Assembly (NCBI RefSeq): GCF_014633365.1
Contig: NC_068347.1
Location: 11,871,655 to 11,935,654 of the forward strand
Length of the DNA: 64,000 bases
Source: Diospyros lotus
Lineage: Eukaryota; Streptophyta; Magnoliopsida; Ericales; Ebenaceae
Direction of reading: 5' to 3'
The position numbers were made by a program, and so were the translations under genes. The notes below the pieces were generated by a model. That model saw only the letters and a program-made list of their open reading frames with translations. It did no database searches and was not told where the DNA came from. How positions within the stretch are numbered: position 1 is the first letter of the stretch; each line of letters begins with the position of its first letter. Shown one piece after another: positions 34,191 through 64,000 of the stretch.

Positions 34191-37100
34191 GTCAGTGTTT
34201 GACGAATTGATTTCCCCAATGCTTCTTGTTTATCATGACTTTCAAATGCCTTTTAATAACGGGTCATGTTTGGTTCCTAACCCAATTGGTTGAATTTTTT
34301 GCAGGCGTAAAGGAGTTTGAGGCGAGATGGATTGGCTGGGCTGGTGTTAATGTGCCAGATGAGGCTGGGCAGAGGGCACTTACTAAGGCTTTGGCTGAAA
34401 AGGTTTGAACCTTGATGCTAAAATTTCACCCTTTGTGATTTTTATCTGCACTTACACGAGTCTCTTGACGTCAGCCAATTGGCTGTTTGATTTTGATCAA
34501 TGGAGAGTTTTTGTGAGCATCACTCAAGTTTTTCTTTTCTAAAAATTCATGGCAGAGATGTATTCCTGTGTTCCTTGATGAAGAGACTGTTCATCAATAT
34601 TACAACGGATACTGTAACAACATATTATGGCCTCTTTTTCATTATCTTGGACTTCCACAAGAAGATCGCCTTGCCACTACCAGAAGTTTTCAGTCCCAAT
34701 TTGATACATATAAGAAAGCAAATCAAATGTTTGCTGATGTGGTAAACGACCATTATCAAGAGGGTGATGTTGTTTGGTGCCATGACTACCACCTCATGTT
34801 CCTTCCAAAATGCCTGAAGGAACACAATAGCAAAATGAAAGTCGGTTGGTTTCTCCACACACCTTTTCCTTCTTCTGAAATCCACAGGACTCTCCCATCT
34901 CGGTCTGAGCTGCTGCGTGCAGTTCTTGCTGCTGATCTGGTTGGGTAAGTTATTGTATTTTTCTGCTTTAATGTTTAATCTTGTGCGGTTACACTTTTGC
35001 TACTTGGCATTGTTAATACCATAGTACTAATAAGGATTATTATCATCTCTTGCGAACCCTTAATCTTGAACCTAGGTATATGCTAGTCTCCATGCCAGTT
35101 CTTGTTCACACTGTTGTGCACCTGATGCCTGCATACTAGCTAAAGTAACTCTGAGGTTCAGAATCTTTGTGGGGTGTTCTATCTGTGGCTAAGAGTTACT
35201 TGCTTCTTGCTTTACCACTCACAGAGCGTAAAACCATGCTGTTAGCATGCTTTGACATATTTTTATATTCACCTAAACTATATTAACGTAGGCAACCTTG
35301 AAATATATTGAGGTGCAATCACGGTGGATCCCTATATCTTACTGGATTCGTCTGGCATTAGAAAATGCAGTTGGATATGTGTCTTTGCTTGTGTGCCTAG
35401 GTTTTGCATACTCTTGTTCTTCATATTTTCCCATGTTTTCTGTTCTTTCTATAAATTTTCAGAAGCATGTAGTTCTAGTAAAATCAGTTACAGACAATTT
35501 GTAAATTGACAATTAATTATTTCATCAAAATTTGCTGCCACATTGTTGAAAATTTTGAAGTGGCTCATGCAGTGCTTCTCACGGCATTTGTTCTTTCTTC
35601 ATGAGAAGTGTTAAACCGTGATTCTAACTGATTGACGAGATTAAAAGCCCTTTTCTTAATCAATCCAAAATTTGGGATTTCACCATACCATAGGTAATAT
35701 ACATACTGTGGCAGTTTATAAATCTTTCTCATGAAAAATATTTTTGGTGGTGTCCAAATTTTCAACTTGATATAAATTCACCAATTACAATTGTGGATGT
35801 TGTTATGGTAAAACTTGAAGATCAAGTCATCCCCAAAGAAAATCAATTTGGATATCTTTAATCAGTCATCCAAAAAGATAGGGGAGATTAATAAAGATGT
35901 TTCCCTTGAATTAAGTCAAGATGGTTAAAATGGAAGAGTACATTTTCTGTTTTGTGTGATGGTGAGATTCTGTTAAAGCTAAAAGGAAAATTTGATAAAG
36001 TGGCTATAATTACAGCTTTGTTGTATGCACAAAATATTGGTTAGTAATAGAGTTGTAATTTTTGTTCTATTTTGTATTGTATTTTACACATTGATGTTGT
36101 TGTTTGTTAGTTTCTTATCATTTGTATTTTTGTTGCTGTAAGGGCATTTCTGTAATTTGACTATATTAGTTCTAGGTTATATTTATGGCCGAGATCTCAA
36201 TGAGTAAAACGATTGATGAGGCTTTTCTATTCCTTCGTGTATTTATTCTCTGTTATGGTATTAGAGAAAATACTCAAAACCCTAGACTCGATTTCCGTTC
36301 TCCGTCGATCTCCGACGTCGTGAGTTCTAGGTACACTTCCTTTCTTCTTTGATCGACGCTGTGTGTTGTTTTTTTTTCTGGAGTCATTGTGAATCTCTGT
36401 TGTTCGGAGTTTTGCAAATTGGTATTACCGTCTTCCTTCTTCTTCACTTTTAGTGATCTCGAATCTTGCAATTGTATTCCATTATTGTTTTCCTTTACTT
36501 TGAATCTAATTGATCGCTCATACTTGTTCTATGGCGACTTCATTTCTGGAAATTTCTTCTTCGTCAATGAGCACCTCTACTATTGATGATGCCTCAAGTC
36601 CTTATTTCTTGCATCATTCTGATAGTCCTGGATTGCTATTGGTTTCTCAACCACTGATCGGAGACAACTACGCGTCATGGAGCCACGATGCTAATTGCTC
36701 TCTCGGTAAAGAAAAAATTAGGTTTTGTTAATGGCTTAATTTCTTGCCCACCAGGTGATGATCCTCTTTTCAATTCTTGGATCAGAAACAACAATATTGT
36801 GATCTCCTGGATTTTAAATTCTGTCTCTAAAAAATATTTGCAAGTGTGATATTCTCTGAATCTGCTTAGGATATTGGGAATGATCTTAAGGAAAGATATC
36901 AACAGTCTAATGGCCCTCAAATATTTCAGCTTAGGAGGGAATTGATGAACCTAACACAAGGCCAATTATTTGTTAGTGCTTATTTCACAAAACTTAAGAT
37001 CATATAGGAAGAACTTAGCAATTATAGGCCAAACTGCTCTTGTGGAAGATGTTCATGTGGTGGTATAAAGGCCTTAGCAGATCACTATCACACTGAATAT

Positions 37101-55100: not shown

Positions 55101-58100
55101 ATTTTGACTTTGATGAGAATGGCCAAAGTAAGGCATGTTTTCAGCAAAAGTCACATTAGTTGACACAAGGAATTTTTTAGAAGGGCGGTGGTAGCACCGG
55201 TAACCTTTTTGGGTAGAGGAGTATCCAATGAAGATGGATTTAGAGCACGAGAATCTAATTTGCCTCTATTAGGAGTATGGACATGAACAAATGATACACA
55301 TCCAAAGACTTTAGGCTTCCAACAGCTAGTAACATGAACATCAAGAAAGTGTTTGGTTAAGAGTTGAACGAGACTATGAGATTTGAGAGTTTGAGAAGAC
55401 AATCTGTTGATAAGAAAAGTGGCTATTAGAGCTACTTCTCCCCAATAATGTTTAGGAACATTATGGTGGAATAGAAGCGTTCTGATAACAACAAGTAGAT
55501 GGCCATTCTTCCTCTCGGCCACTCCATTTTGTTGAGGAGTATAAGGGTAGAAAGATTCATGGATGATCCTTTTTTGTTGAAAGAAACTTGATAGGGTCTG
55601 ATTGAAGAAGTCTTTGGTATTATCAGACCTAAGTTTCTTAATTGTCACCCAAAATTGATTTTTGACCATGTTATAGAACGTAGGAAAAATTGTACTCACT
55701 TCAGATTTATTTTTCATAGGTATAGCCACATTACCCTAGTGCAGTCATCAACAAACACTATGAACCATTGTGCCCCAAAAATATTAGGGACAATTGAAGG
55801 GCCCTAGACATCACTATGAATTAGAGAGAAGGGAAGAGAAGTTCTTTTATTAGATAAATGATAGGTCACTCTTTTATGCTTAGCAAGTTCACATATAGAA
55901 CAGTGAAAGTGTCTAACATCAAGACCCTTAAATAAAGTTGGAAAGATGACCTTAAGAGTAAAAAATGAAGGATGATTGAGACAATAATGATGTAACCATA
56001 GCTGATCTTTGTTGGATTGGGTCAAACATGACATAAGGGGAACCTTCTTTTTTTTCTCCTGCTCGCCTGGTTCCTCAAGATAGTATAGACCAGCCTTAGC
56101 TTTAGCAAGCCCAATCATCCTCTTTGTGTCTTGTTCTTGAACCCCACAGAGAGTAGAATAGAAATTAACACTACGATTGGTATGTAGGATAAGCTTTTGG
56201 ATAGAGATGAGGTTAGTGAATAATTTAGGAAGATGAAGGACAGTTTTAAGGGTGAGATGTTCATTAAGGATAACATCCCCGTTGTAATACCCGGAAGTTC
56301 TGTAAAACATACATTTGAGGAAGTAGAACATTTTAAAGGATCATGGAAGTTCAGGGGCAAAAGCGTAATTTCTTGAAAAGTTTGGGAGAAAATGTAATTT
56401 ACCAAAAGTTTTGGAAACTCTTCAAGGGCCAATGAATGATGCAAGAAGCCTCTTCCAAAGGACATTTGGTGGTTGAAATATGGGAATTCAAGGATGGCTA
56501 AGATAAAGATACAGGGGTCAAAGTGCAAAGGTATAAAGTTTTGGGCCAAAGTGTAATTTTTGAAAAACTTGAAACGAACTCGTCGGAGAAATGAACTGGC
56601 CAAGCTTTCTGTTCGGAGGCATGATGAGGCTCTATAATCAAGGTAACAGGTGGCATATCAAGTGGTGAAAGGGGATTGGCTGGGAAACTTTATAAATTGG
56701 CTAAGGATGGAAGCCTGAAGCAAGCCAGTGGGATTTGAGCCAAAATTAGGTTAGTTTGAGGGGAGAAATAAGTTCTTGAGGAAGAGGGGAAGATTTTGTA
56801 AGGAAAACGAGTGAATTTGGTGAAGAGATGAGGGAGAAATGAAGTTTCGTCGGATTTTTCGAACTTCGCCAGAATCTGGGTTGACGTTGCCGGAAAACGG
56901 CCAGGAATGGGTGGTTTAGGGCCATAATTGGGTAAAGGGGAAAGAGATGAAGGTGTAGGAACAAATGGGGAGTGAAATAGAGTTGAAATGAGGGAGAAAC
57001 AACAAAAAAACAAAAGGCCTACCGAGTTCGCATCACTGTTGCCAGAGAAGATGACCGGTGCGTGTGGAACAAGCGCCAGACCAGGCTGCGCCTAAAGGCG
57101 CTTGAGGCAGCTTTTGGAGGCACGTGCGGGCATGTGGTAAGTCCAAAAATTCATAAAAAAAATACCAAAAATTAGGGAAAAATAAAATAAAAGGGTTTAT
57201 GGAAAAAATAGGGTACTTGCTTTACATAAATTCTCGTTTATTGCAGAAAAACAAGCCCCGATAAGCGTGAACAGTATTGTGAGAAGTTAGAGGTAGAACT
57301 CCAACCTAAAAAGCTAGCTTAACAGGTGGAGGGATCATTTTCCTTATATATAGCCTGGGTCTCCCTTGTAGAGGCGATATGAGATTTTCAACACTCCTCC
57401 CCACGCCGAAGCTTCTCCAGTAACTGATACATGCCCAAGTGATCGGATAGGGTACTGGTCCATGACCACGATAGCCAAGGGTTAGTTCTGATACCATGTG
57501 AGAAAACAATTATGAGAGAAAAACCTAGGGTTTTTAGGCCGCTGGAAAAAAATACACAGTGGTGACTTGGGTTTTTTTTACCGGTGGCTCTAATACCATG
57601 TGAGAAGTTAGAGGTAGAACTCCAACCTAAAAAGCTAGCTTAACAGGTGGAGGGATCCTCTTCCTTATATATAGCCTAGGTCTCCCTTGTAGAGGCGATG
57701 TGAGATTTTCAACAAGTACCATTCAGGTAAAACAAGAAGGTGATTGGTTCTTGCATATAAGTTGCTTCATCCCAGCCATTTATAATTTTATTTTGTGTGG
57801 TTTGTGGCTTACATATCATGTGTTTTCTTGATAGAACATGTTATTTCCATTTATCATGCTTCACGGCGCTTGTGGCTTGTTGAAGTAGGTCATCATGTGT
57901 GATCGGGGAGCGATCACATGCCTATATGGTGGGGCTGAGGAATTTGGACATGATGACCAGTGGGGATGATTGTAACATCTTGGCATGGCTACCACAGGGG
58001 GAGATTTTATTCTACATATTATATTTGCACGCACGAAATTTTATTCTAAACCCTCACTAAGATGTTTCATATCTTACATCGACATATTCAAACGTGCTAA

Positions 58101-60372
58101 GTACCCCAAAGACAAGTAAAGGAAAAGGCAAAGAGGTGGTTGAAGTTTAGTTGGATTTCTCTAATATTTGTTGTGTATATACCTCAGACCTTGTATATAT
58201 ATATCTTAAGCGTTGTTCTACCGATGTGGCATAAGCAAGAGCTACCATAAAGCTTGGGTCTATCTTTATTTTTGAGCTTTGTGTGTCATACATGTACCTG
58301 TACTAAAATATTTAGTGGAAATCCTAACTATTTAGCTTTTCATGTTCGATCCTTTACATCCGCTAATAAGGATTTCCATAATGCTCACGTGTAATATTAG
58401 TATGTATTAGCCACATTATAATATTTAGAAACGGGGCGTTACACCCATGGCCAGCAACAGTGGTTAAAGAACCATCTGCCATAGCAATTTTTTTGGAGCT
58501 TGAACAAGGACTATAGGTTATAAAAAGATGTGTGGAAGGGGTCATGTGATCCTAGGTTATAAATCTAGGATCCATGAGTTAGGTTGGGTTATTCCCGAAG
58601 CATGTAGGCTAAGAGAACGAGCAGAAATATTTGTCAGTGTGAGAGAATAGGTACCTTTATCAACTTTCTTGTCAAGGGATTCCAGAAAGCTCCTTAGTCT
58701 CTCCATTTCAAACTTGTTAAGATCTAAGCCATCTCCCTGCTCTGACCCCTTTTGTTCAACTTGCTGGTGGCTGCTAGCCATATAGACCTGACTTTGTCTC
58801 CTTAGCTGTCCTCCTTTGGATGGTTTTCCATGTAGCTTCTAGTACTTCTCTATGGTGTGCCTAGGTTTTTTACGATAGGTACACCATAGGGAGTCTCTAT
58901 CTCTATCCCCAACCTTCTTCTCCTTTCTAGGTCCTTTGTTGGGAGCCTTTAGAGACACTAGCTCAAAACTCTCTATTGGAGAATTGTCCAGCATTACTCC
59001 CCTTCTTCCTTATTCAGAACGAACTACAAAAATCACTTCATTTAGAGAGGGTAAATCCTCCTTGTTGAGGATTTGAACTCTTACCGCATCAAACTCCATG
59101 CTGAGTTTGGCTAGGAAGTCGTATGTCTTCTCCTTCTCCACAAATATCTTCTGTAATGCAGCATCTTCACTACACTTCATCTTCAGGCATTGGTAATGAT
59201 CCAATTCTTGCCATAAGGTCTGCAATACATTTGCATACTCTATGATGGATCTTGCCCCTTGCTTGGTGGCTGCAATTTTGGTCCTTATCTCATAAATTTG
59301 TGCAGCATTGTGAACCTTGGAGTAGGTGAGCCTTATTGCCTCCTAAATGTCCTTTGCTGTCGTGAGGAACATCATAGTGTCACTGATCTCCAAAACCATG
59401 GAGTTCCACAGCCAAGACATCACTAGGGAGTCCTCCTCATCCCATGCTGCAAATTTGGGATCTCCCTTCTTAGGACCAGTTCCCAAAAGGTGACTTAACT
59501 TTCCTTTTTCTCTTTAGAAAAGTGCAAATCAGTTGAGACCACTTCAAGTAGTTCTTACCATTCAATCGGTAAGCCACTTGAATATTCTGCAATTCTCTAC
59601 CCGAGCCTACACTATTGGTTCCAACAAATGGAATTTCTATTGCACTGCTGGAATCAACCAAATCTGGCCTAGGATTAAGGTTAGGAGTAGTAGACATAAT
59701 ATCGAATGAAGAAGATTGATGAAGGCCTTAACAATCCCAAAGAACGGTGACTATTCTATGGCTCTGATACTATGTCAAAGAAGACGTGGAAAAGAATGTT
59801 TTCAATCTTATTCTCCTTTGATGGGTAGATCAAATTATATACAAAACTTCCTCACTAAATTAGGAAGTTTCTAAGAAACTAAATAAGAGAGTTTCCAAAT
59901 TTGGTTTTGGAAACTCGTACAACTTTAGGATACAACAACTAATGGAAGGATACCGCTAATAATAGAAAGATACAATAATCCAAATCTAGAATATACATTC
60001 CCTATTTTAGGAAACAAATAATAATCAGTGCCAATCAATGCTGATCTGAACTTATTCGAGAATAAGGACAAGATCAGTCTTCCCAATCGTTGACATTAGC
60101 ATTTATATTTTTTTTGAAAGAAAGATAATGCCATTAAATATATACAATCCCATCTCATCTCAGTTTTACATGTTAATATAATTGGTTGGAAGATAATCTC
60201 TACAAATCTTTCACCGCCTCATTACATCATCTCTCACTGTCTGCATCTCTTAATTGAATTTGTTGTGCTTTTGTATATTACAGATCAAAGACTTACAAGC
60301 CAGGTTCATGAAATTGTTGGACGGATCAATGGAAAATTTGGGACGTTAACTGCTGTACCAATACATCACCTG
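33827..60372 (+). CDS. TPS1: Class I trehalose-6-phosphate synthase, exons 1-7 (5' half of gene)
   Basis: The product joins UDP-glucose and glucose-6-phosphate to trehalose-6-phosphate, the sugar-status signal of plants. The seven exons are 33827-34190, 34305-34402, 34556-34944, 40852-40966, 41155-41256, 44347-44497 and 60284-60372. They total 1,308 bases, exactly 436 codons, with GT-AG borders and no stop. The N-terminal extension (about residues 1-90) is typical of class I plant enzymes and is known there to restrain activity. The GT20 domain follows: the GG-L loop at the end of exon 1, the Y...W pair of [33 protein letters not shown] and PTRTDVPE. These match the G6P and UDP-glucose binding residues of E. 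coli OtsA (Y76, W85, D130, H154, R262, K267, R300). The rest of the GT20 domain and the phosphatase-like domain lie beyond the window. Near-identity to AtTPS1 supports a functional gene. Introns 3, 5, 6 and 7 are filled with transposons. Confidence 0.93.
34305..34402 (+). CDS. TPS1: TPS1-like exon 2
   Basis: 98 bases after TTTTTTGCAG. It completes the split glycine codon and encodes [14 protein letters not shown] to LAEK. The donor is AAG|GTTTGA and intron 2 is 153 bases long. Confidence 0.93.
34556..34944 (+). CDS. TPS1: TPS1-like exon 3
   Basis: 389 bases after GGCAG. It encodes [10 protein letters not shown] through the [11 protein letters not shown] substrate motif, [13 protein letters not shown] and [14 protein letters not shown] to LAADLV. 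The donor GG|GTAAGT splits a glycine codon completed by the first T of exon 4. Intron 3 is 5,907 bases and carries a LINE fragment and a copia element. Confidence 0.95.
35800..36030 (+). mobile_element. RTE-type LINE fragment in intron 3
   Basis: In the + direction the decayed frame reads KLEDQV, then FGYL, then VQDG-like and LKLKGKF words, the conserved C-terminal part of plant RTE reverse transcriptase proteins. The same segment is clearer at 44900-45080. The 3' end of the LINE is missing and a copia LTR follows, so it is truncated at both ends. Confidence 0.6.
36531..37643 (+). pseudogene. gag: Copia gag, frameshifted
   Basis: ATG 36531 opens [12 protein letters not shown] and reaches [15 protein letters not shown], the UBN2-type gag start of plant copia elements. 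Frame shifts near 36710-37100 break the frame. From 37104 the frame is open again and carries a zinc knuckle [14 protein letters not shown] (C-x2-C-x4-H-x4-C) near 37333-37374. A TAG at 37641 ends the frame just before the protease, in the same frame, and is probably a nonsense mutation. The product would be the capsid/nucleocapsid part of the polyprotein. Confidence 0.8.
37644..38990 (+). pseudogene. pol: Copia protease and integrase remnant
   Basis: [13 protein letters not shown] near 37701-37739 is the aspartic protease site. [14 protein letters not shown] and [14 protein letters not shown] mark the pre-integrase zinc region. [12 protein letters not shown] and, after a frameshift, FRSDNALEL and PEQN(Y)VVERKH hold integrase D, D and [18 protein letters not shown] marks its C-terminal region. 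Stops at 37968 and 38229 and several frameshifts prevent translation of an intact protein. Confidence 0.8.
39320..39846 (+). pseudogene. pol: Copia reverse transcriptase, N-terminal half only
   Basis: The decayed frame shows [50 protein letters not shown] and KSIYGLKQ, the ordered conserved blocks of copia RT. It stops before the YVDD active site; after about 39846 the sequence is an unrelated LTR fragment. Confidence 0.8.
39847..40090 (+). mobile_element. LTR 3'-part fragment (SIRE/Tork-like)
   Basis: It has the phrase AGTCTGGACGTAGGATCTAC and AGGTGGTCAGAACCAAGATAA, a diverged version of the GTGGA(T)GTAGGC...CGAACCAC block of the LTRs at 4255 and 15509. It directly follows the truncated RT, which suggests a deletion between two elements. 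Boundaries are approximate. Confidence 0.45.
40852..40966 (+). CDS. TPS1: TPS1-like exon 4
   Basis: 115 bases after TATTTTAG. It encodes [16 protein letters not shown] to LTRVAA in frame with exon 3. The donor is GCA|GTATGT and intron 4 is 188 bases long, free of transposons. Confidence 0.94.
41155..41256 (+). CDS. TPS1: TPS1-like exon 5
   Basis: 102 bases, 34 codons, after ATTGCAG. It encodes [15 protein letters not shown] to ERFAGRK. The donor is AAG|GTTGGT. Intron 5 is 3,090 bases and contains a minus-strand copia fragment. Confidence 0.94.
42430..43165 (-). mobile_element. Copia pol 3' fragment in intron 5
   Basis: On the minus strand 42791-42552 reads [30 protein letters not shown] and NQLADLLKK, the RNase H end of copia pol. 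Upstream on that strand (to about 43165) further decayed RNase H/RT words are seen. A polypurine tract (TTGAGGGAGA in minus direction, about 42550-42560) is followed by a likely 3' LTR reaching about 42430. Everything upstream is lost. Confidence 0.75.
43166..43545 (-). mobile_element. Probable LTR fragment
   Basis: It contains a GA run (43287-43301) and a duplicated GATCTCAATT phrase (43302, 43323), and on the minus strand TATATAAACAAACTGACC. It directly continues the copia fragment and resembles an LTR U3/R region. Assignment is weak. Confidence 0.3.
44347..44497 (+). CDS. TPS1: TPS1-like exon 6
   Basis: 151 bases after GTTGTATAG. It encodes [13 protein letters not shown] (UDP-glucose binding Arg and Lys) to PTRTDVPE plus one base of a tyrosine codon. 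The donor is T|GTACGC. The tyrosine codon is completed 15.8 kb downstream by exon 7. Confidence 0.93.
44809..45525 (+). mobile_element. RTE-type LINE, 5'-truncated, TSD ATATACCTTCTTCC
   Basis: A 717-base 3' end of a non-LTR retrotransposon. The 14-base word ATATACCTTCTTCC lies at 44795-44808 and 45526-45539. The decayed frame reads [61 protein letters not shown] and [15 protein letters not shown] words, then RGRGRPKK. The tail is TGTTGTTGTTGT, the (TTG)n end of plant RTE elements. An internal stop at about 45267 shows decay. Confidence 0.88.
46350..49066 (+). mobile_element. Internally deleted Ty1-copia element in intron 6
   Basis: A 5' LTR (about 46350-46674, with CTCTATAAATAC at about 46589) is followed directly by the tRNA-Met site TGGTATCAGAG at 46675-46685. 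A GC-rich non-coding leader runs to about 47880. Then come short gag remnants, a protease site [11 protein letters not shown] near 48079-48111, pre-integrase words and, after loss of the integrase core, the linker before RT (open frame 48264-49064, ending [14 protein letters not shown]). RT, RNase H and 3' LTR are absent. Confidence 0.8.
48022..49064 (+). pseudogene. pol: Copia pol remnant (protease plus integrase tail)
   Basis: Two overlapping frames are used. 48022-48378 has protease [13 protein letters not shown], and 48264-49064 starts in the GAG-pre-integrase region ([11 protein letters not shown]). It then jumps at about 48470 to the post-integrase linker ([36 protein letters not shown]). 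The missing piece is the integrase catalytic core, consistent with an internal deletion. Confidence 0.75.
49067..49504. other. Unassigned part of intron 6
   Basis: No gene or clear repeat. It separates two copia remnants; it may be leader or host intron. Confidence 0.3.
49505..50072 (+). mobile_element. Copia 5' LTR, primer site and gag start only
   Basis: The LTR is TGTTGATTCTTGG...TTTCTCACA (49505-49805). It is followed directly by TGGTATCAGAGC (49806-49817), the tRNA-Met primer site. A short leader and a gag-like start ([11 protein letters not shown] at about 49944) follow, and the element is cut at about 50072 by another LTR. Confidence 0.7.
50073..51448 (+). mobile_element. Internally deleted Ty1-copia element
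   Basis: The LTR (50073-50247) starts TGTTGAGTTGTATATGG and ends TTCTCACA. It is followed by a degraded primer site (TGATATCAT) and a GC-rich leader. The coding remnant (about 50630-51440) starts in the linker before RT ([15 protein letters not shown]) and covers RT blocks [47 protein letters not shown] (frameshifted) and [11 protein letters not shown]. Gag, protease and integrase are deleted. It is cut at 51448 by an inverted relative. Confidence 0.75.
51906..52886 (-). mobile_element. RTE-type LINE nested in the copia element, 17-bp TSD
   Basis: The duplicated target TTGAAGCAATTGTTTTA is at 51889-51905 and 52887-52903. The minus strand carries the RT catalytic block [13 protein letters not shown], then [62 protein letters not shown] and [13 protein letters not shown]. 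The 3' tail is on the left, (TTG)n reading CAACAACA on the + strand. 981 bases, 5'-truncated, with a frameshift near 52440-52480. Confidence 0.92.
53698..53726. repeat. GA microsatellite in LTR
   Basis: A (GA)n run of about 29 bases at the end of the truncated LTR. The sister LTR at 51449 has only five units, so the run expanded after insertion or shrank in the other copy. Confidence 0.8.
53831..54545 (-). pseudogene. pol: Copia reverse transcriptase remnant
   Basis: In minus direction: [62 protein letters not shown], a broken [11 protein letters not shown] block and the intact catalytic [11 protein letters not shown] near 54040. Stops and frameshifts separate the blocks. It ends at [12 protein letters not shown], where the deletion junction lies. 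Confidence 0.82.
54546..55729 (-). pseudogene. pol: Copia integrase and linker remnant
   Basis: 55729-55151 shows [12 protein letters not shown] (second Asp) and [17 protein letters not shown] (Glu of the DDE triad), then [19 protein letters not shown]. 55166-54546 is the linker ([12 protein letters not shown]) ending in [17 protein letters not shown] and the start of RT. The frames are long but shifted relative to each other at about 55160. Confidence 0.82.
55730..56282 (-). pseudogene. pol: Copia pre-integrase and integrase N-terminus
   Basis: The minus frame from 56282 reads [38 protein letters not shown] and [17 protein letters not shown], then [11 protein letters not shown] with the zinc-binding residues, and SLIHSDVW with the first catalytic Asp. 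It is broken on the right by the insertion at 56283. Confidence 0.82.
56283..58443 (+). mobile_element. Solo LTR (gypsy, chromovirus-like) inside the copia element, TSD CCCGT/CCCAT
   Basis: It begins TGTAATACCCGGAAG and ends ACGGGGCGTTACA. The flanks CCCGT (56278-56282) and CCCAT (58444-58448) differ by one transition. The coding sequence of the copia element resumes directly on each side. It contains the CCATTCAGGTAA motif at 57719-57730, shared with other LTRs of this window. No coding sequence. A TRIM is nested at 57278-57714. Confidence 0.88.
57278..57714 (-). mobile_element. TRIM (miniature LTR retrotransposon), complete, 437 bases
   Basis: Two 116-base direct terminal repeats, 57278-57393 and 57599-57714, differ at four positions. 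Both start TGTGAGAAG and end TTTTCAACA. The internal part is 205 bases. Beside the right repeat lies the complement of a tRNA-Met primer site (GGCTCTAATACCA, 57586-57598), so the element is on the minus strand. Beside the left repeat lies a pyrimidine tract (CTCCTCCCCAC, 57394-57404), the polypurine tract in minus direction. Flanks AGTAT and AGTAC form a TSD with one change. It has no coding capacity and depends on enzymes of other elements. Confidence 0.93.
58444..58800 (-). pseudogene. gag: Copia gag C-terminus and protease start
   Basis: The frame 58781-58557 reads [19 protein letters not shown] and reaches SWILDL, where the protease site DSGA should follow. A frameshift/stop has destroyed it. 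[19 protein letters not shown] and [12 protein letters not shown] continue at 58545-58444 up to the solo-LTR insertion. Confidence 0.75.
58801..59697 (-). pseudogene. gag: Copia gag remnant
   Basis: ATG 59697 opens [12 protein letters not shown] and [13 protein letters not shown], the UBN2 gag start. 59225-59010 reads [16 protein letters not shown] and [20 protein letters not shown], the gag middle. A degenerate zinc knuckle lies near 58860-58890, where cysteines have been lost. Multiple stops separate the blocks. Confidence 0.8.
59773..60095 (-). repeat. 5' LTR of the long copia element
   Basis: 323 bases with inverted ends TGTCAA/TTGACA. The primer site adjoins its left side, which fixes its orientation. 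It ends 188 bases before exon 7, in intron 6. Confidence 0.8.
60284..60372 (+). CDS. TPS1: TPS1-like exon 7
   Basis: 89 bases after TATTACAG. It completes the split tyrosine codon and encodes [16 protein letters not shown] to VPIHHL, matching the residues that follow exon 6 in plant TPS1. The donor is CTG|GTGAAC. The next conserved segment (DRSLDFHALCA) is not found up to 64000, so intron 7 is longer than 3.6 kb. Confidence 0.93.
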
Positions 60373-60904: not shown

Positions 60905-61046
60905 TATCATGCCTTTATCTCACTATCTGGGGTTAGCTAGATAAATTCTAGTTTGCTAGTCATTTCTATCCATGACCTTATTCTTCTAAGGCCTTTATTA
61001 CTCATATCAGACCTGAATGTCTCATACCAAGATTTTCTTAGTCTTC
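60905..61046 (-). mobile_element. 3' end of an RTE-type LINE
   Basis: The + strand reads GCCTTTATCTCACTATCTGG and TAGCTAGATAAATTCTAG, the complement of the conserved LINE 3' end (GGGATAAAG... before the (TTG)n tail) seen at 45480-45525 and 51906-51950. It is interrupted on the right by the LTR element at 61047. Confidence 0.7.
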
Positions 61047-61395
61047 TAATAGGAACCCCGATAGAAATCCAAACAATCAAATACCAATAACTATCAATAC
61101 TTTTCAGCAAGAAAACAAGAACAAACCAGGGCATTCGAGAGGCCCTTACTCTCCCAATTCTTCTATCAAAAACTAGCTACCCTCTCCCTCTTCTTCTTAG
61201 CTCTTTATACCGCTCCTCTGCCCCTCTCTAACCAAATTCCCTTACACATGCAAATTATTCCCTCAGCCTATGGATTACAAAACTACCCCCCATACGCACA
61301 TGCTGGTTGTAACAACCTGCATGTGCTAATTCCCTATTCTCCCCTTCATGCTTGCTGGTCTTTGGTAGGTCCGATACATCGGTCGCCTATCATTA
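61047..61395 (-). repeat. 3' LTR of the gene-capturing element
   Basis: It matches 63688-64000 closely. The right LTR should reach about 64035. The left LTR interrupts a LINE 3' end. All differences that I noted between the two LTRs are transitions. Confidence 0.85.
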
Positions 61396-61429
61396 CTCCC
61401 CTCCCGCAGACAAGGTGAAAAGTAGGAAA

Positions 61430-61885
61430 TTGTTGCTGAATCGTAGGGCTCCTAGGTGGTCCAGGACCCACTTGGGCTTGGAGTATGTGAATCTTGTCTT
61501 CAATTCGCTGGGCGGTCTCCATGATTTGTGATAGACCCGATGGCCGTAACACCCTAACTTCTGTCCTGATTTTTGGCTTCAACTGGTTAACAAATGTGCC
61601 CTCCAGTATGGCTACTGAAACTTCTCCCACCCGGGCCGCCACTTCCCGATCAACCTTAATGTCTGCTGGCAGAAGAACTATAACTGGCCTGCCATCTCGG
61701 TCTATGCTGAACTTCGTTCTTCTTAACATAATTGGCCTCAAAATTGACTGCACCAACTTAAGTCCTCTCTCATCACCCTCCTCGAAAGGCCTTTGGACAA
61801 GTTTATTCCACCATGCCCATTTCCCCCATGGTTCCACTCTCAAAAAACGAAGGAGACTGTAAATGTCCTCCAGATTGTTCTCATC
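61430..61885 (-). pseudogene. RAD5/HLTF-like SNF2 ATPase fragment fused in frame to a gag tail
   Basis: About 61885-61652 reads NNLEDIYSLLRFLRVEPWG, then WWNKLVQRPFEEGDERGLK and SILRPIMLRRTK, closely resembling plant RAD5A-type DNA repair ATPases between the Q-N-x-LED block and the RRTK motif. Without a stop the frame continues into VGEVSVAILEGTFVNQLKP, EVRVLRPSGLSQIMETAQR and IEDKIHILQAQVGPGP, the C-terminal part of the gypsy gag (compare LEGHFINGIKP in the first copy). Only about 75 residues of the host-like protein are present, without ATP-binding site. It shares a reading frame with the UBA2-like fragment upstream, separated by one stop. Confidence 0.8.
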
Positions 61886-61903
61886 AAAAGTGGTAGGAGA
61901 TGG

Positions 61904-62515
61904 TTAGACCCTTGATGGCGCCCCAATCATCGGTACGATGCCCTCCTTGGACGTTACTAGATCCGTTGTCCTTGACTTCAGATTCCTGATCTTTTTCCTC
62001 AGCTGCTTCAATGCCTTGGCCGCTTCCAGCCTTGTCTTGAACTGGACGAAGCTGTAGCCCTTGGTCTTGCCCATGACCCGGTCGAAGATGACGTTGCAGT
62101 CCTCAGTCTCGACGCATGATTCGAAGGCAGAGACTAAGGTTTCTTGCGTCGTGTCCCACGCGAGGCCGTAGACGACGAACTTGTGACGAGATATGTCGCG
62201 ATCCGCGGCATCGTGGAGGCGAGTGAAGAGGAAAGCGTCGGGCACGGCGGCGCCGACAAGGAAGTTAATCCACTGGTACTTGGTGTAGGGCTCCAGAAGT
62301 TTCTGGATCTTCTTGGGCTTGGTCTCACCGGAGGAGGAATCACCGTCGGTGTCCGAATCGGACTGAATTGGCATCGTGGTGTCTTTGGTTGGGACTGGAG
62401 CTTGGTATTTCTAAAGCTTCTTCTTCTTCCTGCGTTTCTTCTTGATGCTTTTGCTGTCACCTTGTGGTTGTCTAGTCACCGGCTTTTTCTTCTTCGCCTT
62501 CCCCTTCTTCGCCAT
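61904..62515 (-). pseudogene. Captured UBA2-like RNA-binding protein fragment (RRM)
   Basis: From ATG 62515 the frame reads MAKKGKAKKKKPVTRQ and a lysine-rich tail, then a stop at 62411. In the same frame KKIQKLLEPYTKYQ, HDAADRDISRHKFVVYGLAWD and TTQETLVSAFES follow, and then EDCNVIFDRVMGKTKGYSF. FVVYGL and KGYSFVQF are the RNP2 and RNP1 motifs. The order, including LLEP...ADRD...H.K before the RRM, is that of plant UBP1-associated protein 2 (UBA2a/b), nuclear hnRNP-like proteins. The fragment ends after KKIRNLKSR at a stop at 61904. Lost residues and the stop show decay. Confidence 0.82.
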
Positions 62516-62610
62516 TGCTTGAGCAGAGATGCGATGGTGGTGCCCTATGGCTTCGTCTTTCAGGTTTGCTTTCTTACTCACACTCTTCGTCTCCTTCACT
62601 CCCACTGGGC

Positions 62611-63660
62611 CTATGGAAGTGCAGCACCCTCCAAACACAGTGTTGCTGTGTTCGTCTTCTCACTAGCCAACATCGCAACTCCCAACTCCTCACCCATCGC
62701 CTTAGTGAAGGCCGGAGGCCAGTGTGATGAGGCGGGGCTGGGCATCACCCATTTTTGTGCCATCATCGGAGGTGGCAAGATCACTACTCGCTGGTGATTC
62801 GAAATTGGGGACGAAGGGGCTTGACCTTTGTTTGGGCCGGGTCCAAAAGTGCTTCCACGAATCACCAGATTCATCTCCTCAATTGGTTGGGCTAGGTCCA
62901 TCATCTGCTCCAGCCCAATCAGCCTCGACACCTTCATCTCGGCTCGGATGACAGGCTTTATTCCGTTGATAAAGTGGCCCTCCAGCAACGCCTTTGCCAT
63001 GCCTGTGAGCGGTGAGGTCAGAGTCTCGAAGCCAAGGTGGTAGTCCTTGACAGACCCCCACTGTCGAAGCGCAAGGAACCTCTCTTCCATCGTGCCTTCC
63101 TGTGCAGTCCTGAACCTATCCCTTAACATCGCCTTGGGCTCCTTCCAGCTCCTCACCCGTCGTCATCTTTACTCCCACTGGAACCACGACAGAGCCGCTC
63201 CTTCAAAGCATGAGGCCGCCGACTCCAACTTCTCCGCATCGGACAGCTGGTTCACCAGGAAGTAGCGCTTAACCCTAAAGACCCAGCCATCTGGATCATC
63301 TCCCTCGAAGATGGGTATTTCCAGGCGTCTTCCGACACCATCGACCCAGCCGCCCCCTTCGCCACTTCTCCCTCCAGCTACCAGCGTTCCCTCCCTTGAC
63401 ACGGGCGAACCCACAGGTTGGTCTTCCTCATCACGCTCCCCCTTTCTCTCTCTCTCTTGCTCCCCCCGTCTCTCCTCGTTCTTCCTCTTGCTGCTCGCCC
63501 GCTCCTATTCTTCCCATCTCGCTCGCATTCTCGCGAACAGCTCTAGCAGGTTTGCTAGGTGTCTCTCCATCTTTTGAAACTCACTCCTCATGGCATCTCC
63601 CAGGGGAATGCCTTCCACCCTCATCTCCAAATCACCGACTGGATTAGTCAACTTCACCAT
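62611..63660 (-). pseudogene. gag: Ty3-gypsy-type gag, first copy
   Basis: One reading frame with two stops runs from about 63660 to 62611. It reads MVKLTNPVGDLEMRVEG, then IPIFEGDDPDGWVFRVKRYF and CFEGAALSWFQWE, the start of the Retrotrans_gag domain. MLRDRFR, LRQWGSVKDYHLGFETL and LLEGHFINGIKPVIRAEM follow, then LEQMMDLAQPIEEMN. The order is that of gag in gypsy elements. After about 62740 the frame runs through SPASSHWPPAFTK without recognisable zinc knuckle and reaches a second CLEGAALP motif. The GC content is clearly above that of the surroundings. Confidence 0.82.
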
Positions 63661-63687
63661 TAGGATCGAAACGCTTTGATACCAAAT

Positions 63688-64000
63688 TAATAGGAACCCC
63701 GATAGAAATCCAAACAATCAAATACCAATAACTATCAGTACTTTTCAGCAAGAAAACAAGAACAAACCAGGGCATTCGAGAGGCCCTTACTCTCTCAATT
63801 CTTCTATCAAAAACTAGCTACCCTTTCCCTCTTCTTCTCAGCTCTTTATACCACTCCTCTGCCCCTCTCTAACCAAATTCCCTTACACATGCAGATTATT
63901 CCCTCAGTCTGTGGATTACAAAACTACCCCCCATACGCACATGCTGGTTGTAACAACTTGCATGTGCTAATTCCCTATTCTCCCCTTCATGCTTGCTGGT
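63688..64000 (-). repeat. 5' LTR of the gene-capturing element (cut by window end)
   Basis: 313 of about 349 bases are visible. It lies next to the primer-binding site, so it is the 5' LTR on the minus strand. Confidence 0.85.

Follow-up and report, generated by a model that had tools for sequence, protein, structure and literature searches.

How does an LTR retrotransposon come to hold, between its terminal repeats, pieces of unrelated host genes? The question is raised by the end of a 64,000-nucleotide stretch of Diospyros lotus DNA (C10:11871655-11935654, here called the window), in which a sequence-only reading had seen a non-autonomous LTR element with two captured host genes, one of them fused to gag. 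Arguments about such pickup usually start from the finished elements. The 630-Mb assembly (43 contigs) that we searched holds parental-type elements, derived elements and two donor genes, so that two of the joins are readable from both sides at base resolution.

Structure of the element

When the window is read together with its flanking sequence, the complete LTR insertion spans 61047-64033 on the minus strand (2,987 bp; Table 1). The LTRs are direct repeats, as had been proposed: 61047-61359 and 63688-64000 differ at 9 of 313 positions, every one a transition, and a GAAGA target duplication encloses them. Both LTRs of the window copy have the end TATTA, whereas other copies have TATCA (TGATAGG...CCTATCA). 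K between the two is 0.036 (347 columns), and the usual plant substitution rates for dating, 1.3e-8 and 6.5e-9, would place the insertion at about 1.4–2.8 Myr. Target duplications, read by eye in the 14 rows having both LTRs, are perfect and 5 bp long in 12; that of L023 has 6 bp and L020b has none.

Direct-orientation LTRs with TG...CA ends, the target duplication, a primer binding site (which we take to be of the initiator-Met type) and a polypurine tract are those of an LTR retrotransposon. The match to Retrotrans_gag is significant (Pfam, 4e-7), that to Ty3_capsid weak (0.063) and under its cut-off. No pol domain was detected in the five element ORFs scanned, and the mapped parts fill the 2,987 bp; the element thus has gag and lacks the protease, reverse transcriptase, RNase H and integrase of an autonomous Ty3/gypsy element. 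Nor is it a TRIM, a very small element without gag, since it has 2,987 bp and a gag. Judged by these features, it is a non-autonomous Ty3/gypsy-type LTR retrotransposon bearing UBA1-like, XRN and RAD5A fragments. This bears out the earlier description, in which the LTRs of a non-autonomous element enclose pieces of host genes unrelated to each other.

Table 1. Mapped parts of the element in window coordinates
Feature	Position	Strand	Basis or remark
Left target-site duplication TCTTC	61042-61046	.	Right copy 64034-64038 beyond the window; GAAGA both sides on element strand
3' LTR (TGATAGG...CCTATTA)	61047-61392	minus	LTR comparison and flanks
Polypurine tract GGGAGGGGAG, adjoins 3' LTR	61396-61405	minus	Predicted from position and composition
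Second gag, tail (AARVGEVSVAILEGTFVNQLKP...)	61406-61640	minus	43% identical to matching part of gag1; also in L027, L028
Captured RAD5A exon 5, last 12 nt	61641-61652	minus	Remainder after 237-bp deletion between TTAAGGT repeats
RAD5A fragment	61653-61879	minus	Parts of three donor exons, two introns missing; 223/227 identical to donor L025
XRN exon stub, 24 nt (PSPTTFDE)	61880-61903	minus	Starts at XRN 3' splice site, ends where RAD5A begins
Element-own spacer (..TSKEG.VPMIGAP..)	61904-61981	minus	Also in elements without UBA1-like piece; window-copy stop 61904-61906
UBA1-like N-terminus and RRM	61982-62515	minus	Start codon 62515; codon 35 of window copy an in-frame stop
Segment upstream of UBA1-like start codon	62516-62580	minus	Common to other elements bearing that piece
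Second gag, 5' remnant	62581-62637	minus	70% identical to 63154-63210
gag1 (Retrotrans_gag), three in-frame stops	62640-63660	minus	Pfam
Primer binding site TGGTATCAAAGC	63673-63684	minus	Read in sequence
5' LTR	63688-64000, on to 64033 outside window	minus	LTR comparison and flanks

Read on the minus strand, the order is primer binding site, gag1, second-gag remnant, UBA1-like piece, spacer, XRN stub, RAD5A, gag tail, purine tract and 3' LTR. L027 and L028, relatives without host genes, have gag1 and a second gag free of host interruption, though stops are present in them, and the host pieces of the window copy therefore sit inside the second gag and replace part of it. As the sequence-only reading had noticed, the minus strand from 62515 to 61346 is a single reading frame interrupted by two stops; they fall at codons 35 and 204.

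The element lies antisense, ∼670 bp downstream of a trehalose-phosphate synthase exon (60284-60372; the match ends in IHHL just before GT), and was probably inserted in an intron of that gene, a position that we can only infer because the next exon is outside the window. The gene itself occupies 33818-60420 on the plus strand (Glyco_transf_20 is matched by the ORFs at 34517, 44347 and 60118); its introns reach ∼16 kb and contain copia-like and reverse-transcriptase-like remains. A 116-bp sequence is present twice at 57278-57714 of the window, spaced 321 bp and 97% identical.

Host genes in the element

The RRM of the first host piece is clear (Pfam, 6.6e-12), as the earlier reading had it, but the assignment of this piece to UBA2 finds no support. 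Its nearest proteins are named 'UBP1-associated proteins 1A-like' and include three from Diospyros lotus (P0013-P0015), while the three next-best genes of the genome, presumably UBA2 types, are only 36-44% identical. A UBA1-like donor gene was not found in the genome, where no match falls between the 71% of the element copies and 41%, apart from one of 44% to a sub-domain (E 9.4e-4). The segment upstream of the start codon is perhaps a host 5' UTR. The UBA1-like frame is broken in the window copy. The C-terminal residues of P0013 match those at the element locus L032, and this protein therefore appears to be the product of the L032 element; one or more of the Diospyros lotus proteins that bear the name 'UBP1-associated proteins 1A-like' would thus be retrotransposon cargo. 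Two further candidates for host genes were rejected: the tail of P0013, which the protein search matched in P0013 alone, is the XRN end followed by element 3' sequence, and the segment 3' of the UBA1-like piece is element sequence that occurs without that piece.

The helicase piece, a fraction of the SNF2 domain (Pfam, 1.9e-12), has RAD5 as its best solved-structure match (9.2e-15), in agreement with the RAD5-like SNF2 fragment that had been recognized. The donor, RAD5A (L025, C1:26.9 Mb), has five exons here, separated by four introns whose ends read GT and AG, and a copia-like polymerase remnant is seen in translation upstream of the captured region. Comparison with the donor, which the sequence-only reading had recommended, shows that the five exons were captured without their four introns, one of them 2.4 kb long. 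In 12 of the 17 RAD5A copies the alignment runs through all four former intron positions, and any gap is more than 5 bases away. In three copies this holds for only three positions, a 48-bp deletion ending beside the fourth. The window copy and L010 cross two of two, the others having been removed by a 237-bp in-frame deletion. To judge from these crossings, RAD5A was taken from spliced RNA. The helicase piece does read in frame into the gag tail, as had been reported, but the join owes its form in the window to that 237-bp deletion, common to one other copy among 17 (L010). The pieces are 94.6-98.2% identical to the donor. Proteins of other plants give partial agreement: among 12 fragments, six match from WNKL onwards, where the second exon starts, and two stop at the terminal GR of that exon; P0010 and P0011 have extra residues at GR before the match resumes.

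Both of the captured genes reported earlier are present, but a third host gene, XRN, has to be added, of which the window copy retains the 24-nt stub. Sister elements encode XRN_M (8.3e-45; best solved structures, exoribonuclease 2), and the host gene (L058/L059) was located on C8:1.88-1.91 Mb, where the matching exons are separated by introns. Eight of the ten XRN-type elements cross three of three intron positions without a nearby gap; for L029, which is shorter, the figure is two of two, and for L057 it is two of three. These counts use the three positions with correct exon ends, the fourth being a one-base gap where the exon end was set one base too long. A single jump inside the XRN piece lies off the exon edges and shares ATAGA. 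Identity of the XRN pieces to the donor (91.5-94.4%) is lower than that of RAD5A, as would be expected if XRN was captured earlier.

Forms of the family

A search for further copies was run with the UBA1-like piece, and with fragments of one locus joined it returned 53 genomic loci at 71% identity or more. RAD5A is also present in 17 of them, and 36 have no RAD5A match listed. Twenty-six of these 36 were read in sequence: 10 contain an XRN piece, 11 an apparent XRN deletion derivative, and five run into element sequence that also occurs in elements without the UBA1-like piece. Outside the 26, search matches put XRN beside the UBA1-like piece at C14:12863911 and C6:7243757. One genome contains the element, the element with UBA1, with UBA1 and XRN, and with UBA1, an XRN stub and RAD5A. 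No relatives of the element were found in viral contigs.

Trees of the UBA1-like piece do not join the RAD5A copies in one clade: with 43 rows two of them, L012 and L019, are placed apart from the main RAD5A group, and with 23 rows and midpoint rooting the remaining forms branch from within the RAD5A copies. Strong support is missing for most inner branches, and recombination may contribute to the pattern.

Some loci deserve separate mention. At L020 (C13:5899500-5909400) two chimeric RAD5A copies stand in tandem as an LTR-internal-LTR-internal-LTR array, the middle LTR being common to both. In L031 (C4:11016400-11020800) element sequence is combined with a segment resembling Methyltransf_29, and a chromodomain is weakly matched, the Methyltransf_29-like segment being fused with the UBA1-like part in one 489-aa frame; 146 matches point to such Methyltransf_29 chimeras being a separate large family. 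L045 and L051 have another partner downstream of the UBA1-like part (VVALKNLRMAIIPRTAQGHGWLRP... in L051), which lacks a Pfam match and may be another captured gene.

Joins at splice sites

At their 5' sides both captured genes are joined at a host splice acceptor. The left edge of RAD5A is the first base of a donor exon (AACAAT) in 17 of 17 copies, with one substitution there in L014 and L012, that of L014 at the first base itself. For XRN, the exon of donor L058 begins at ..ccttgcag/CCATCTCC (the slash marks the break, here and below), and in 10 of 10 XRN-type elements the join lies at the first base of this exon, after GGTCCAG or a one-base variant. Introns are gone and the pieces start exactly at host splice sites; the host exons were therefore likely picked up by RNA splicing.

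The other side of each join can be read in elements of the parental type. In L031 and L054 the UBA1-like piece is present without XRN, and the XRN break reads CAG/GTTGTC in the first and CAG/GTTATC in the second. Among six elements without the UBA1-like piece, two have CAG/GTTGTC and three CAT/GTTGTC or CAT/GTTGTT, and the pattern was not found in L064. At the RAD5A break, GATGAG/GTGTTC of the XRN-type elements stands against GATGAG/AACAAT of the RAD5A copies; GT follows GAG in nine of the ten XRN-type elements, and L049 has GC. We take this GAG/GTGTTC donor site to be a weak match to the splice consensus. The right edge of RAD5A is inside exon 5 and has a few bases in common with gag.

Our favoured reading, with a probability of roughly 0.7, is that the family would have acquired XRN and RAD5A when its transcript was spliced onto host exons and the resulting chimeric RNA was copied by reverse transcription, a process that would then also spread the exons. 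In such a scheme the UBA1-like piece would come first; XRN would then be taken at the CAG/GTTG site of the element, and RAD5A at GAG/GTGTTC inside the captured XRN exon. The chimeric RNA might arise by read-through from an element that had landed further upstream in that host gene, or by trans-splicing. It would bear the 5' leader and packaging signals of the element and be packaged with normal element RNA, after which a reverse transcriptase from an autonomous relative could switch templates and so restore the gag tail, polypurine tract and 3' LTR. Parental insertions are unseen: among the genome matches of the UBA1-like piece, no element bearing it was seen at either donor gene. On this reading the insertions were lost or never fixed, or else the RNAs were trans-spliced. 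The weak consensus match of GAG/GTGTTC and the trees, in which the RAD5A copies form no single clade, also count against the scheme. It should be noted that the splice signature comes from only two capture events, XRN and RAD5A.

Pure template switching could produce much of the same outcome. Host mRNAs would be co-packaged, the reverse transcriptase would jump at short shared sequences, and the joins would fall on exon boundaries by chance. The loss of introns is expected under this model too, and the right edge of RAD5A, the internal XRN jump at ATAGA and the 237-bp deletion at TTAAGGT resemble such jumps. Exons also often end in AG, which provides a small shared sequence; should the RAD5A exon that precedes the captured one end so, a two-base jump would be possible at that join. 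At the XRN join, however, the preceding exon ends in GACCGG, and only its last G is in common with the CAG of the element, so a jump there would have had one shared base. Both left edges fall exactly on exon starts, moreover, and parental-type elements mostly have GT at both breakpoints, so that we consider template switching unlikely as the sole route.

Coding capacity and selection

One could also suppose that the RRM, the helicase fragment and gag form a chimeric gene, whose single protein aids the element or the host. Two RAD5A-bearing loci do have all three parts in one open frame (495 and 428 aa). Omega values, obtained with a mutation spectrum from 19 LTR rows and wrong-frame controls, count pairs of related copies, so their intervals are rough. 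For the UBA1-like part omega is 0.62 (0.51-0.76; 23 rows) and the wrong frames give 0.96 and 1.02; this part, as far as such ratios tell, shows mild constraint, and its value below those of the wrong frames means that it may have mattered to the element. For gag1 it is 0.64 (0.46-0.88; 14 rows), with 0.81 and 1.11 in the wrong frames. The LTRs give 0.84-1.03 over three frames. In the gag tail no frame stands out, since its own gives 0.81 and the other two fall lower, to 0.65 and 0.74, which shows how low values outside a coding frame can go. Against a gene made of all parts, no constraint is detectable on RAD5A inside the elements, where omega is 0.93 with a wide interval (0.50-1.88; 17 rows; 76 codons kept in the window), the window copy has its two stops, and only a fraction of the helicase domain is there; a chimeric protein-coding gene is therefore improbable. 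Rearrangement of DNA, or processed pseudogenes nested into gag without splicing onto element RNA, is the least probable account. An element could receive a spliced retrocopy by insertion, at least in principle, and intron loss would be compatible with this, but both pieces start at internal exons and are directly joined to each other in 17 RAD5A copies, and neither a poly(A) tract nor a second target duplication was noticed at their edges in passing, non-systematic inspection.

Returning to capture by splicing, a bolder version can be put forward tentatively, although we find it rather doubtful: the LTR lineage would act as a serial exon trap, in which the cryptic splice donor of each captured exon takes the next host gene, with the UBA1-like RNA-binding protein kept under selection as an element gene.

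Comparison with known systems

Pack-MULEs (PMC13317346) and the CACTA element Tgm-Express1 (PMC1947982) likewise unite fragments of genes that have nothing to do with each other. These are DNA transposons, whose fragments, in the accessible parts of their descriptions, retain exons and introns (PMC1947982, PMC4717578), whereas introns are gone from the Diospyros RAD5A and XRN pieces. Multiplication of genes by LTR elements links our case with rice and sorghum, for which 672 and 1,343 LTR-captured genes were reported; that work is a survey of annotated genes, and the word 'intron' is absent from its main text (PMC3726574).

The nearest relatives in kind are exon-only captures. Soybean GmaRetroS15 has exon-only pieces of three genes, and gene-carrying soybean TRIMs are 1,172-1,449 bp long with 5-bp target duplications (PMC4717578). 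The Diospyros elements are likewise non-autonomous LTR elements with exon-only pieces and 5-bp target duplications, but the soybean description, in its accessible part, is without mention of splice-site joins or of stepwise parental and derived forms (PMC4717578). Maize Bs1 is an LTR retroelement with pieces of three host genes and a new chimeric gene (PMC13317346), and its capture was exon-only (PMC4717578). Like Bs1, the Diospyros family holds several unrelated host segments, intron-free, inside one LTR element; it differs in that forms with and without each captured gene occur in one genome, and its left joins sit on splice sites. Multi-gene capture by LTR elements is thus less rare than the sequence-only reading had supposed, Bs1 and GmaRetroS15 each having pieces of three genes. 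Multi-gene, exon-only capture is already known; what is new is a stepwise capture chain with splice-site joins, readable in one genome. Within the full-text literature, which leaves most subscription papers out of reach, we found no plant LTR capture described as splice-site-joined and no report on LTR gene capture in Diospyros.

The closest parallel in mechanism comes from the transduction of oncogenes by retroviruses, which proceeds by read-through, splicing, packaging and recombination, and whose model predicts entry by splicing and exit by template switching. As there, the 5' join appears spliced onto an exon and the 3' join made by non-homologous recombination during reverse transcription; the Diospyros case differs in that a plant gypsy-type element without pol or envelope made its captures serially. 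The two joins suggest that host exons came in by splicing and that template switching led back into the element, so that the retroviral oncogene model becomes directly testable in plants; they also offer a route by which multi-gene chimeras can be built step by step.
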